From Saprospiraceae bacterium (lineage in GTDB: Bacteria > Bacteroidota > Bacteroidia > Chitinophagales > Saprospiraceae), in contig JAHDFP010000018.1 of assembly GCA_020628095.1 (NCBI GenBank), positions 1-64,000 of the forward strand: a DNA stretch of 64,000 nt, read 5' to 3'. How positions within the stretch are numbered: the stretch's first letter is position 1; every line of letters starts with the position of its first letter. Below are positions 3,022-7,062 of this stretch, in pieces. Both the position numbers and the translations under genes were made by a program. Below the pieces are notes generated by a model. That model made no database searches, had not been told where the DNA came from, and worked only from the letters and a program-made list of their open reading frames with translations.

Positions 3022-5670
3022 CTAAAAATCAAACTCTATGGTATCACCAGGATTAATTATACCATTCTTTTTTGATTGGTTGCCTTTATTATCCTTTAGA
3101 CTTGCATCATTTGATTTTGTAACACTTTTACTTACACTTTTATCTTCCTCGCCGTGCTCTTCTATCTTTAATATTTTATACTCACCTAATTTATTACCTA
3201 TAGCCTTCCATCCTTTGACACCTATAAATTCAGATAAATCTATTTCTTCCTCTTGTTTCTGATTATTTTTCTTGTAACTAAATTTCACCACTGGCGTCTC
3301 GCTCAATGTTGCCAAATACAACTTAGACGACTTATGATGTGAGATAAACTTGGTGTAGACATCCTCGCTTTGTGTCTCTATATGGAAACGCTTGACCATC
3401 GTCCAACCTTTCTCCCCCTCGTAGTAGACGCAACTCAGGACGGTCTCTTCGTACAGCTTTTCTGCATCTATAAGATTAGGACCATCATATTTTTTATCAA
3501 AATTGAATTCACTCAGCATATAAGTTCCGTTCTTATAGACTGTGATTATCATTTCTCCTGACTCGAATTCGCCAAGATATTTGCCATGTCCCTCTTTATT
3601 CAATCTTCCACTGGTCAAATCTATCCATACCTCCACTGCTCCTAGAGAGCTTTCTCCTACTTCTAACTGAGTCACCTTACGGACAGGCCACTTAGTGACG
3701 ATATTACCTTTAGATCCCCTACCCTTAATCTCTAGGTCGGCAAAATCAAAATCAAAGACCTTCTTTTTGGCCCGACACCCTGGCGTCAACTGTATCTGCA
3801 CAGTCTCCGTCTCTCCATTAGGATGGGCCGCAAAGTACACCACCTTATTCTTGGCATCACCTGTCGTCAGATCATACTCTTTGTCTCTGGTAATCGAGGT
3901 TACATTGAATCTTTTAGCGTAAGCACGTCCCGATTTGGCATCTATATATATCATGTTATAGGTCGTGCGCTCATCTCCTTTCTTCCATACGGCCGCATGC
4001 AATAAGTTCTTACCTATGAATACCTTATCACCATTTCTTACCACTCGCATAGTACCCTGCTTAGTAAATCCAATGATATCGTCGATATCAGAACACTCAG
4101 AGATAAACTCATCTTTTTTGATACCCGTACCTATAAATCCTTCTTTTCTATTGACATATAGTTTGGCATTCTTAGCAACAACAGCGACCGCCTTGATGGT
4201 ATCAAATTCTGCAATTTCTGTTTTGCGCTCTTTTCCTTTACCATACTTTTCTAATAATCGTTCGAAGTAGGCAATGGCATATTCAGTTAGATGTTTGAGG
4301 TCATAATTAACTTGCTTTAGTTCATCTTCTATGGATTTAAGTAATTCATCGGTTTTGAACTTATTATACTTCGAGATTTTTTTGATTTTTATCTCGGTCA
4401 ATTTGATTATGTCTTCCTCAGTTATTTCTCTTTTTAGTTTGAGACGTTTATCATTTTTGGTCGCCTTGTCCCCAGGGGTCTTGACATACTTACGCAATCC
4501 TTTATCTATTATCTTGAGCACCTCTTCAAAAGACTCTGCCTCCTCTATATCCCTGTATATCCTATTTTCTATAAATATCTTCTCCAGACTAACGGCATGC
4601 CATTTTTCGAGTAATTCACTCTTTTGTATCTCTAGTTCTTTCTTGAGTAATCCCTTCGTATTTTCTGCCGATATCTTTAGCAGATCATCGACTCCACAGA
4701 ACAAGGGCTTCTTATCTGCAATGACTACCGCATTAGGTGATATGGATATTTCACAATTAGTAAATGCGTACAATGCCTCTAGGGTCACTTCCGCAGATAC
4801 ACCTGAGGGGAGTTCCAGCAGTATTTCGACGTTCTTAGCCGTATTATCTATGACCTTTTTGATCTGTATTTTACCCTTGTCATTCGCCTTGAGGATGCTA
4901 TCAATCAGATTGCCAGTCGTCACACCATAAGGCAATTCTGTGATAGCCAGAGTCTTTTTATCTCTCTGCTCTATACGCGCGCGGACTTTTACCTTTCCTC
5001 CTCTTTTGCCTTGGTTATACTCGGAGACATCTATTTTTCCTCCTGTCTGAAAATCTGGATACAGCTTAAATCTTTTCCCTTCTAAGGCCTTGATCGAGGC
5101 TTTAATAAGTTCTACGAAATTATGTGGTAATATCTTAGTCGAAAGGCCCACCGCAATCCCTTCTACCCCTTGTGCGAGCACTAGAGGAAATTTCATAGGG
5201 AGTGTTATTGGCTCTTTGTTTCGACCATCATAAGATAGTTGCCACTCCGTCGTCTTGGCATTGAATGCCACATCCAGAGCAAACTTGGTCAGTCGAGCTT
5301 CTATATATCTCGGTGCTGCCGAAGCATCACCCGTTATGTAGTTACCCCAGTTACCCTGCGTATCAATAAGCAAATCTTTCTGCCCCAGATTAACCAGAGC
5401 CGCACCTATCGCGGCGTCCCCATGTGGATGATACTGCATCGTCTGACCTATCACATTAGCCACCTTATGATAACGACCATCATCTATCTTCTTGAGTGTA
5501 TGCAGTATTCTTCGCTGCACGGGTTTTAGCCCGTCTTCTATGGCAGGTACCGCCCTCTCCAGAATCACATAGGAAGCATAGTCAAGGAAGTACTCCTTGT
5601 ACATTCCTTCCAGTCCACCATTGCTTTTTTCTGGGTCTAACGATATTGCTTTTACTTTGGATTTACTCAT
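3022..5670 (-). CDS. parC: DNA topoisomerase IV subunit A (type IIA topoisomerase, breakage-reunion subunit)
   Basis: An 882-residue type IIA topoisomerase A subunit that cleaves and religates DNA and works with a separate ATPase subunit (ParE/GyrB type) to decatenate chromosomes. The N-terminal region carries YASYVILERAVPAIEDGLKP and QRRILH, the HPHGDAAIG helix (residues 81-89, equivalent to the quinolone-resistance region) and the catalytic tyrosine in APRYIEARL (Tyr122). The C-terminal third has divergent beta-pinwheel-type repeats and ends in a charged tail. The sequence lacks a recognisable GyrA-box (QRRGGKG), which favours topoisomerase IV over gyrase. The ATPase subunit is not in this window. 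A good Bacteroidota promoter lies at 5713-5742. Confidence 0.9.
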   Translation of the reverse strand: MSKSKVKAISLDPEKSNGGLEGMYKEYFLDYASYVILERAVPAIEDGLKPVQRRILHTLKKIDDGRYHKVANVIGQTMQYHPHGDAAIGAALVNLGQKDLLIDTQGNWGNYITGDASAAPRYIEARLTKFALDVAFNAKTTEWQLSYDGRNKEPITLPMKFPLVLAQGVEGIAVGLSTKILPHNFVELIKASIKALEGKRFKLYPDFQTGGKIDVSEYNQGKRGGKVKVRARIEQRDKKTLAITELPYGVTTGNLIDSILKANDKGKIQIKKVIDNTAKNVEILLELPSGVSAEVTLEALYAFTNCEISISPNAVVIADKKPLFCGVDDLLKISAENTKGLLKKELEIQKSELLEKWHAVSLEKIFIENRIYRDIEEAESFEEVLKIIDKGLRKYVKTPGDKATKNDKRLKLKREITEEDIIKLTEIKIKKISKYNKFKTDELLKSIEDELKQVNYDLKHLTEYAIAYFERLLEKYGKGKERKTEIAEFDTIKAVAVVAKNAKLYVNRKEGFIGTGIKKDEFISECSDIDDIIGFTKQGTMRVVRNGDKVFIGKNLLHAAVWKKGDERTTYNMIYIDAKSGRAYAKRFNVTSITRDKEYDLTTGDAKNKVVYFAAHPNGETETVQIQLTPGCRAKKKVFDFDFADLEIKGRGSKGNIVTKWPVRKVTQLEVGESSLGAVEVWIDLTSGRLNKEGHGKYLGEFESGEMIITVYKNGTYMLSEFNFDKKYDGPNLIDAEKLYEETVLSCVYYEGEKGWTMVKRFHIETQSEDVYTKFISHHKSSKLYLATLSETPVVKFSYKKNNQKQEEEIDLSEFIGVKGWKAIGNKLGEYKILKIEEHGEEDKSVSKSVTKSNDASLKDNKGNQSKKNGIINPGDTIEFDF

Positions 5671-5712
5671 TTATTATAAAAAGAACTAATGTTTATAACA
5701 TTGATAATCATG

Positions 5713-5742
5713 CAAATATAGGATGGATTTTTATGAATTCAA
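5713..5742 (-). promoter_or_regulatory. Bacteroidota-type promoter of parC
   Basis: Read on the reverse strand, TATATTTG (5720 to 5713) matches the -7 consensus TAnnTTTG exactly. A TTG (5742 to 5740) lies 19 bases further upstream at the -33 position. The start codon follows about 40 bases downstream. The rest of 5671-5933 is AT-rich, and I see no other gene in it. Confidence 0.5.
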
Positions 5743-5933
5743 TAAAAGCCACAACTGTTTTGGACTACATATCTTTGGTGGTTTTCATTTAAGATTTAAA
5801 CCTTAATCGCTGATTCCTTCCAAATAAAAAAGTATTTCTCACCCTTGTCTCACAACGGACATCAGATCAAATTCCATAGATTAATACAATGACGATCATG
5901 CATCAGATAAAAAACAGACATACTTTTATATTG

Positions 5934-6011
5934 ATGAACAAAACTACTATCATATTCTCTTGCTCATTTTCGGCGACTTGTTGCTGTCTATGTTGTTGCT
6001 TAGTCTATTGA
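5934..6011 (+). CDS. Cysteine-rich leader peptide (attenuator uORF)
   Basis: A 25-codon frame beginning ATG AAC AAA and ending in TGA at 6009-6011. The product starts MNKTTIIF and ends TCCCLCCCLVY. Seven of 25 codons are Cys (TGC 5961; TGT, TGC, TGT 5979-5987; TGT, TGT, TGC 5991-5999), six of them within seven codons and just before the stop. This is the arrangement of amino-acid-sensing leader peptides such as those of the trp and his operons, but for cysteine. It lies 88 bases upstream of the ATP-grasp gene and directly ahead of an antiterminator/terminator pair. Polycysteine leader peptides that sense Cys supply are known in mycobacteria. I know of none described in Bacteroidota. Confidence 0.65.
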   Translation: MNKTTIIFSCSFSATCCCLCCCLVY

Positions 6012-6012
6012 C

Positions 6013-6056
6013 TGGGAAGAGGATATTATAGTACATAAGAAATATAAGCCTTCCCA
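6013..6056 (+). promoter_or_regulatory. Antiterminator pairing of the cysteine attenuator
   Basis: TGGGAAG at 6013-6019 begins one base after the leader stop codon. It is an exact reverse complement of CTTCCCA at 6050-6056, the loop-proximal seven bases of the 5' arm of the terminator. The intervening 30 bases are AT-rich. A ribosome reaching the stop codon would cover 6013-6019 and allow the terminator to form. One stalled on the Cys codons would leave it free to pair and disrupt the terminator. The pairing is seen in the sequence; the switching is inferred. Confidence 0.6.
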
Positions 6057-6077
6057 TTTATTTGGGAGGGCTTTTTT
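6046..6077 (+). terminator. Intrinsic terminator of the cysteine attenuator
   Basis: An 11-bp stem (6046-6056 with 6063-6073, one G-U pair), a six-base loop (TTTATT) and a run of six T (6072-6077). It sits between the leader peptide and the start of the ATP-grasp gene at 6100 on the same strand. There is no complete upstream gene on that strand to terminate, so it is expected to act as a regulated stop. Confidence 0.75.
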
Positions 6078-6099
6078 ACTTGGATTAAAAAATAATGAG

Positions 6100-7062
6100 A
6101 TGTCTAAAATTTTTGTCATTCACGAAAACGAAGCTTGGTTACCACCATTAAGAAGCGCCTTAGAAGAGCTAAACCTACCTTACGAGGAATGGAACATCAA
6201 TCAACACGTGTTGGATCTGAGCGATGCACCTCCCGAGGGTATCTTTTATAATCGTATGAGTGCATCCGCACATACTCGTGACCATAGATATGCTCCTGAG
6301 ATTACAGGCTCTATATTGACCTGGCTCGAAAGTCATGGCAGAACTATAATAAATGGCAGAAAAGCCCTTCAGTTGGAATTACGAAAATCTGAACAGTATC
6401 TGGAGCTACAAAAATTTGGAATCCAACATCCCAGAACTGTCATAGCCAATCACAAAAATCTAATCATCCAAGCCGCCAAAAAACTAAACCTATTTCCTTT
6501 TATACTCAAACCCAATAGAGGTGGCAAGGGAGCTGGTGTGCAACTTATATATTCTATAGAAAGTCTACAGTCTGCCATCAATAACAACCAAATAGGAGAA
6601 AGTCTCGATAGTATATGGCTCGTCCAACAATACATCAAGCCAAAAAATCAAAGAGTTACAAGAGTAGAAATAATCGGAGGAGAATTACTATATGCGGTGA
6701 GCATCAATGCCAGCAATGGATTTGAGCTATGCCCAGCCGATGCTTGCCAGATAGGTGATTCTTTTTGTCCCGTAGGAGAATCAAAGGATAGTCCCAAGTT
6801 CTCCATTATCGATAATTATCATAATGAGGACCTATCCAAATATATCTCGTTCTTAAAAACCAATGACATTGGTGTCGGTGCACTAGAATATGCAGAAGAT
6901 GCAGACGGTAAGCGCTATGTCTATGATGTCAATACTAATACAAACTACAACTCAGCTGCCGAACTAACGTATGGTAACATGCGACGTGGCATGTACACTA
7001 TTGCAGAATATCTAGGACAACAACTAGAACAAGTCATTCCATCGGCAGCGGTGATGGTCTAA
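6100..7062 (+). CDS. RimK-like ATP-grasp ligase
   Basis: A 320-residue cytoplasmic ATP-grasp enzyme of the RimK/alpha-L-glutamate-ligase type, which forms amide bonds through an acyl-phosphate. The N-terminal pre-ATP-grasp domain spans about residues 1-95. The ATP-binding lysine lies in FILKPNRGG (Lys137) with the glycine loop GGKGAG at 141-146. The metal-binding end is ALEYAED (Glu263) and VYDVNTNTNYN (276-284). The acceptor substrate is not predictable from sequence. The gene is preceded by a cysteine-codon attenuator, so its product is probably needed when cysteine, or Cys-tRNA, is short. This could mean it uses or conserves cysteine, for example in a small thiol peptide, but that is inference. 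The transcript ends at the bidirectional terminator at 7119-7153. Confidence 0.8.
   Translation: MSKIFVIHENEAWLPPLRSALEELNLPYEEWNINQHVLDLSDAPPEGIFYNRMSASAHTRDHRYAPEITGSILTWLESHGRTIINGRKALQLELRKSEQYLELQKFGIQHPRTVIANHKNLIIQAAKKLNLFPFILKPNRGGKGAGVQLIYSIESLQSAINNNQIGESLDSIWLVQQYIKPKNQRVTRVEIIGGELLYAVSINASNGFELCPADACQIGDSFCPVGESKDSPKFSIIDNYHNEDLSKYISFLKTNDIGVGALEYAEDADGKRYVYDVNTNTNYNSAAELTYGNMRRGMYTIAEYLGQQLEQVIPSAAVMV

Follow-up and report, generated by a model that had tools for sequence, protein, structure and literature searches.

A probable cysteine-responsive transcription attenuator in front of an ATP-grasp ligase gene in Saprospiraceae and its likely membership in a wider cysteine and sulfur regulon

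In a 64,000-nt stretch of DNA from a Saprospiraceae bacterium (hereafter the window), a short ORF crowded with cysteine codons and an intrinsic terminator separate an ATP-grasp ligase gene from a divergently oriented neighbor, raising the question of what controls this ligase and in response to which signal. A preliminary description of the locus had proposed a ribosome-mediated transcription attenuator sensing charged tRNA-Cys, a reading to which we assign a probability of roughly 0.9 on the basis of comparative sequence analysis. The parts it listed (a leader of 25 codons with seven Cys, six of which fall in a seven-codon block, the strand TGGGAAG and its complement CTTCCCA inside an 11-bp terminator, the six T and the ligase gene) were all located exactly, to the base (Table 1).

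Table 1 Features of the leader region and adjacent genes, in positions of the window
Feature	Position	Strand	Details and basis
Leader ORF MNKTTIIFSCSFSATCCCLCCCLVY	5934..6011	+	ATG 5934, TGA 6009-6011; 25 codons, 7 Cys
Putative regulatory codon block Cys-Cys-Cys-Leu-Cys-Cys-Cys	5979..5999	+	Ends three codons before leader stop
Antiterminator strand TGGGAAG	6013..6019	+	Sequence read, exchange test, folding model
Second predicted antiterminator helix	6023-6027:6041-6045	+	Folding model
Intrinsic terminator	6046..6077	+	11-bp stem 6046-6056/6063-6073
CTTCCCA, complement of TGGGAAG within terminator 5' arm	6050-6056	+	
Predicted hairpin of untranslated leader, hiding 6013-6019	5945..6033	+	Leader fold and folding model
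-7-box-like site TACTTTTA	5921..5928	+	One mismatch from TAnnTTTG; 5 nt 5' of leader ATG
Target gene, ATP-grasp ligase, RimK/LysX-like, 320 aa	6100..7062	+	ORF, profile and structure comparison
Divergent gene, topoisomerase IV/GyrA-type subunit	3022-5670	-	ORF; named by eye

Attenuators of the trp and his type combine a leader ORF, an antiterminator overlapping the 5' arm of the terminator and a third hairpin. The window element resembles them in having a leader ORF with regulatory codons, an antiterminator strand complementary to the terminator 5' arm, an intrinsic terminator and a hairpin predicted for the untranslated state, and taken alone it is a textbook attenuator. Both the leader ORF and its run of codons for a single amino acid are conserved, the terminator lies between leader and gene, and in folding computations the antiterminator excludes the terminator and is placed so as to become available when a ribosome stalls on the run. 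Unlike the trp and his systems, the element uses Cys codons, occurs in Bacteroidota and probably starts just behind a -7 box, and other genes of the regulon described below often carry two full attenuators in series.

In the proposed mechanism, transcription would begin at the leader ATG or a few bases earlier, with a ribosome trailing the polymerase. When Cys-tRNA is scarce the ribosome would stall in the Cys block, and 6013-6019 (with 6023-6027) would pair with 6050-6056 (with 6041-6045) before the 3' arm of the terminator exists, letting the polymerase continue into the ligase gene. When Cys-tRNA is plentiful the ribosome would arrive at the stop codon and cover 6013-6019, and the terminator would form. 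If the leader is not translated at all, the 5945-6033 hairpin would hide the antiterminator and transcription would likewise end, a state that refines the earlier reading. A folding model with an assumed ribosome footprint of 15 nt from the A site, a round figure, gave the antiterminator a probability of 0.74-0.91 when RNA synthesis had reached 6058 and the ribosome occupied the Cys block; a ribosome at the leader stop prevented the antiterminator from forming, and in the absence of any ribosome the hairpin concealed it. The T run of the terminator consists of six T at 6072-6077, of which the first two are base-paired. As the complete terminator is computed to be far more stable at equilibrium than the antiterminator (-19.3 vs -9.9 kcal/mol), the device would have to act kinetically.

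The leader as a whole folds more stably than 200 of 200 shuffles (z = -5.99). The 7-base complement by itself is only modestly unusual, with 10 of 200 shuffles pairing equally well, so the weight of the case lies in the comparison with relatives. A scan of both strands of the window for leader-plus-terminator units returned a single one, at 5934-6077. Away from the expected place the same scan found nine units in 1,278,690 nt (both strands, 80 loci), two of which are the real leader of locus L040 discussed below, and shuffled upstream regions yielded units in 2/920. None of 19 weak Rfam matches within 5700-6200 reached a family gathering cut-off, and no Rfam family matched above cut-off at 13 loci of the regulon.

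Ligase matches at E <= 0.001 were present in 39 of the 199 genomes of the family set, the window genome included. The gene is sporadic: apart from the window genome, just 14 of the 199 carry it at 62-67% identity, and of two same-genus genomes one lacks a match. The Cys-run ORF was found at all 13 of these 14 loci that have upstream sequence, with the terminator recognized by eye; the sequence of the remaining locus, L016, ends too near the gene. A scan of a named genome collection gave 333 ligase relatives, of which 80 were kept (L032-L111), or 81 loci with the window; this set overlaps the family set of 14, and the two are not independent. A leader-terminator unit lies within 450 nt of the gene in 32 of the 81. 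Restricting the set to loci of at least 60% identity whose upstream DNA is readable leaves 24, counting the window; the unit is present in 23 of these, 22 times within 450 nt. The other is L040, where the unit sits 3.3 kb upstream, ahead of an operon of a metY-like gene (named by eye and containing masked bases), a MetX-homoserine dehydrogenase fusion and the ligase. No unit was seen within 450 nt at L054 (60% identity), and L055 is cut and was left out of the 24. Below 60% identity the unit occurs in 10/56 loci (L057, L059, L060, L062, L081, L086, L096, L098, L099 and L103); the other 46, some with less than 450 nt of upstream DNA, have none within 450 nt, and none was found at those of the 56 labeled Alpha- or Gammaproteobacteria. 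At L102 there is just a Cys-rich ORF with a TTG start, a type outside the counting of the unit scan. Four loci labeled Flavobacteriales (L096, L098, L099 and L103) form a distinct group whose leaders are of a separate type and whose antiterminator is strong; in L096 it is 11 bp and exact (by eye), and at that locus an FAD-oxidoreductase-like gene (by eye) begins where the ligase gene ends.

The preliminary description had suggested comparing the leader frame and Cys block with those of close relatives. Both are conserved, and the residues around and outside the Cys run vary (by eye). In 81 leaders (34 ligase and 47 cysM) the run is written with 273 TGT and 111 TGC codons. Compensatory changes in the terminator, likewise proposed as a check, are evident in a set of 40 leaders, from which RNAalifold recovered the terminator with both-side changes and pairing kept in 10 of its 11 pairs.

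Since the position of the antiterminator and its bulges differ between leaders, it was assessed by exchange rather than column by column. In 33 leaders (32 ligase and one cysM) the strand after the Cys run was paired with every terminator 5' arm, and cognate pairings averaged -13.1 kcal/mol vs -9.9 kcal/mol for non-cognate ones, a difference equaled in 0/5000 permutations that ignore relatedness. The best pairing starts 1-17 nt past the last Cys codon in 33/33. The expected coupling of each antiterminator to its own terminator thus stands as an average tendency and does not extend to most single leaders: the own terminator is the best of the 33 partners in only 7, that of the window ranks fourth, and the pairings of L036, L037, L039 and L043 are equaled by 32-53 of 200 shuffles. 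In many relatives the leader ORF itself contains the antiterminator strand, which a ribosome completing translation is therefore bound to cover.

These results bear directly on one alternative, namely a plain terminator behind a chance ORF, without any switching. Such an arrangement would agree with the dominance of the terminator at equilibrium and with the ease with which shuffles match the short complement. It would, however, have no purpose here, because the upstream gene points away and the terminator can end only transcripts begun in the leader. Neither the presence of the unit in nearly all near relatives and its rarity in the controls nor the preference for cognate pairing in the exchange test fits a chance arrangement, and we regard this alternative as very unlikely.

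The attenuator reading gains further weight from the genes in front of which the same leaders recur. When six genomes were searched with a polyCys pattern, a second leader with a terminator came to light in genome G091, preceding an operon for CysM-like, JAB/Mec-like, ThiS/CysO-like and MoeZ-like proteins. Relatives of this CysM occur in 35/199 genomes at E <= 1e-70 and are absent from the window genome (G000). CysM-type loci carry the unit in 25 of 30 cases and two complete units in tandem in 22; the complete CysM-Mec-CysO-MoeZ order was read in L172 only. A covariance model (R1) was built from 40 leaders, and 20 further strong matches were picked and fetched. The unit is present in 19 of these regions, with two units in 16, and L221 has no leader. 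In 16 regions the leader stands ahead of a sulfite/nitrite-reductase-type protein accompanied by a siroheme methyltransferase, in two ahead of a cysH-type and in one ahead of a cysS-type gene; L213, L212, L226 and L229 were checked against NCBIfam and Pfam and the genes of the rest were named by eye. The reductase passes Pfam domains and reaches no NCBIfam cut-off, so the name sulfite reductase is drawn from context. Tandem polyCys units were seen at L143, L145, L146, L148, L151, L155, L156, L213, L218 and other loci, before cysM and sulfite-reductase-type operons.

Among metY genes over the family cut-off, four of nine have the unit (L232, L234, L235 and L239) and five do not. The metY leader of the window genome itself, MMCCCMMICCMTVRRQML, mixes Met and Cys and is followed by a terminator (L239, G000:C8 about 69010-70289); the metY coding match there is split in two near codon 31, by a frameshift or an assembly error. 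None of 11 cysK genes over cut-off and none of four lower-scoring cysKM relatives has the unit. The putative target genes make or use the amino acid presumed to be sensed in the CysM-CysO, cysH, cysS and metY members, and probably in the sulfite-reductase-type operon. Because the same leaders precede cysteine-biosynthesis genes, the Cys logic gains independent support. The window element would then be one member of a larger regulon in Saprospiraceae-type genomes, which extends the preliminary description while supporting its central proposal.

Outside the family R1 is rare, with matches at E <= 1e-5 in 10 of 395 phylum genomes, the window genome included. At this level L293 and L297 look like clear leaders; the former precedes a CysK-like gene and the latter CysM-Mec-like genes (genes named by eye). 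L296 and L298-L301 were rejected as leaders on reading, and L294 is doubtful. At about 1620-1765, L295, from another phylum genome, has an Ile/Val-rich leader, MYQLFAVIIIVIIIPLRV, and a terminator, followed by a gene resembling branched-chain aminotransferases (by eye). In the window genome 21 of 22 R1 matches at E <= 1 have E values of 0.006 or worse, and the weak matches L302, L304, L308 and L309 have no polyCys leader and resemble ordinary gene-end terminators. As weak R1 matches are not leaders, the 147/199 genomes with R1 at E <= 0.01 do not give its prevalence.

The downstream genes also speak to the frame in which the run is read. YTG encodes Leu wherever TGY encodes Cys, and translation in another frame would turn the element into a leucine attenuator; in the window a TTG-started frame (5960-6031) and an ATG-started frame from 5990 read Leu codons across the Cys block. 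An ATG opens the Leu frame in only 6/34 ligase and 13/47 cysM leaders vs 32/34 and 47/47 for the Cys frame, counts that are partly circular, the leaders having been selected by their Cys-frame ORF. Interruptions of the run (CCAACC, CCMCMCC) preserve the Cys frame, and the leaders are followed by sulfur and cysteine genes instead of leu genes, which makes leucine sensing extremely unlikely. Arrest by a Cys-rich nascent peptide sensing metal, redox or a drug instead of Cys-tRNA charging deserves equally little credence: metal binding is conceivable for CC-rich peptides in general, but the residues flanking the run are not conserved (by eye), and in several metY leaders Met codons occur alongside Cys codons, in line with what that pathway produces.

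For the start of transcription, we take the Bacteroidota -7 box consensus to be TAnnTTTG and scored boxes ending 3-17 nt before the leader start codon, with shuffled controls. First leaders have an exact box in 16/77 and a box with at most one mismatch in 38/77, vs 2.1% and 21.8% in shuffles. For second leaders of tandem pairs the counts are 1/40 and 6/40, vs 1.6% and 25.1%. Half of the first leaders have no -7-like box. The enrichment near first-leader starts suggests that many leader ORFs are leaderless or nearly so; the -7-like site of the window itself is a weak candidate for a start signal.

What the ligase does is a separate question. The RimK-like assignment of the preliminary description held at the level of domain and fold, since Pfam RimK (PF08443) passes with 34.5 bits against a cut-off of 21 and the predicted structure (mean pLDDT 86.6, poor at 210-229) lies nearest to ArgX, LysX and RimK; it did not hold at the level of the RimK family TIGR00768, where the score of 65.3 bits falls below the cut-off of 143.4. 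LysX (TIGR02144) scored 58.4 bits against 275.6, and among the NCBIfam matches listed none reaches its cut-off. The protein differs from LysX, ArgX and RimK in its identity of at most 21% in alignments and in a conserved CPxDxC motif. In an alignment of 42 sequences C211 and C216 never vary and C223 hardly does; residues 207-225, comprising the invariant motif and the near-invariant Cys, form a loop that is poorly placed by the model and may bind metal or be catalytic. A search of 6 genomes for LysW, the carrier of LysX and ArgX, gave no hit; this makes a LysW route less likely and leaves other carriers unaffected.

Neighbor clustering across ligase loci gave no conserved partner, only local hints. 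One is the metY-like, metX/hom operon that ends with the ligase at L040. At L033 the strand of the ligase carries, 1.7 kb downstream and past an opposite-strand gene, a cysE-like gene (by eye) together with a cysK gene (TIGR01136 over cut-off). On a Pediococcus plasmid the ligase is accompanied by an annotated thioredoxin-domain protein and a dicarboxylate/amino-acid symporter nearest to DctA/GltP (below cut-off), a permease-like gene (by eye) lies near the ligase of L102, and annotated amino acid permeases adjoin a 33% relative in Spirosoma. Relatives of the ligase appear under record labels of several phyla. Judged by its regulation, the ligase appears tied to cysteine or sulfur metabolism, and it probably serves cysteine or sulfur supply by an as yet unnamed ligation. 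Perhaps, though this is a rather unlikely combination, it performs a novel ATP-dependent step in acquiring or storing cysteine, such as adding an amino acid onto a sulfur precursor or, in the manner of LysX and ArgX with LysW, onto a carrier, while the tandem leaders act as gates in series that make the cysteine regulon of the family respond more sharply.

Attenuation by Cys leader peptides has been reported for Actinobacteria and, in front of cysS, for Rhodobacterales (PMC1262725, PMC8632094). The mycobacterial polycysteine leader ORFs are leaderless according to the title of Canestrari 2020, and Seliverstov 2005 (PMC1262725) describes no conserved terminator hairpins for them and suggests Rho. 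They share with the window element a short Cys-run ORF before sulfur genes and differ from it in that the latter has an intrinsic terminator with a matched antiterminator. The uORFC-8-2 motif before cysS in Rhodobacterales combines a Cys-codon uORF with an intrinsic terminator (PMC8632094); it has, unlike the window element, two tandem Cys codons in a two-stem structure, a single target and an alphaproteobacterial distribution. The preliminary description knew of no Cys leader-peptide attenuator in Bacteroidota, and none was found in the open-licence literature, the coverage of which is incomplete. For F. psychrophilum one study describes indications that amino-acid operons are preceded by leader-peptide attenuators, and Cys may be among the amino acids concerned (PMC9723704). 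The variant part of the present system would be the Cys regulon itself, the tandem copies and the combination of a probable start near a -7 box with an intrinsic terminator.

If the proposed reading is true, Bacteroidota would gain a cysteine regulon controlled through leader peptides, and its serial attenuator pairs could be measured for cooperativity. An orphan ATP-grasp ligase would moreover be placed in cysteine or sulfur metabolism, and its substrate could therefore be sought directly.
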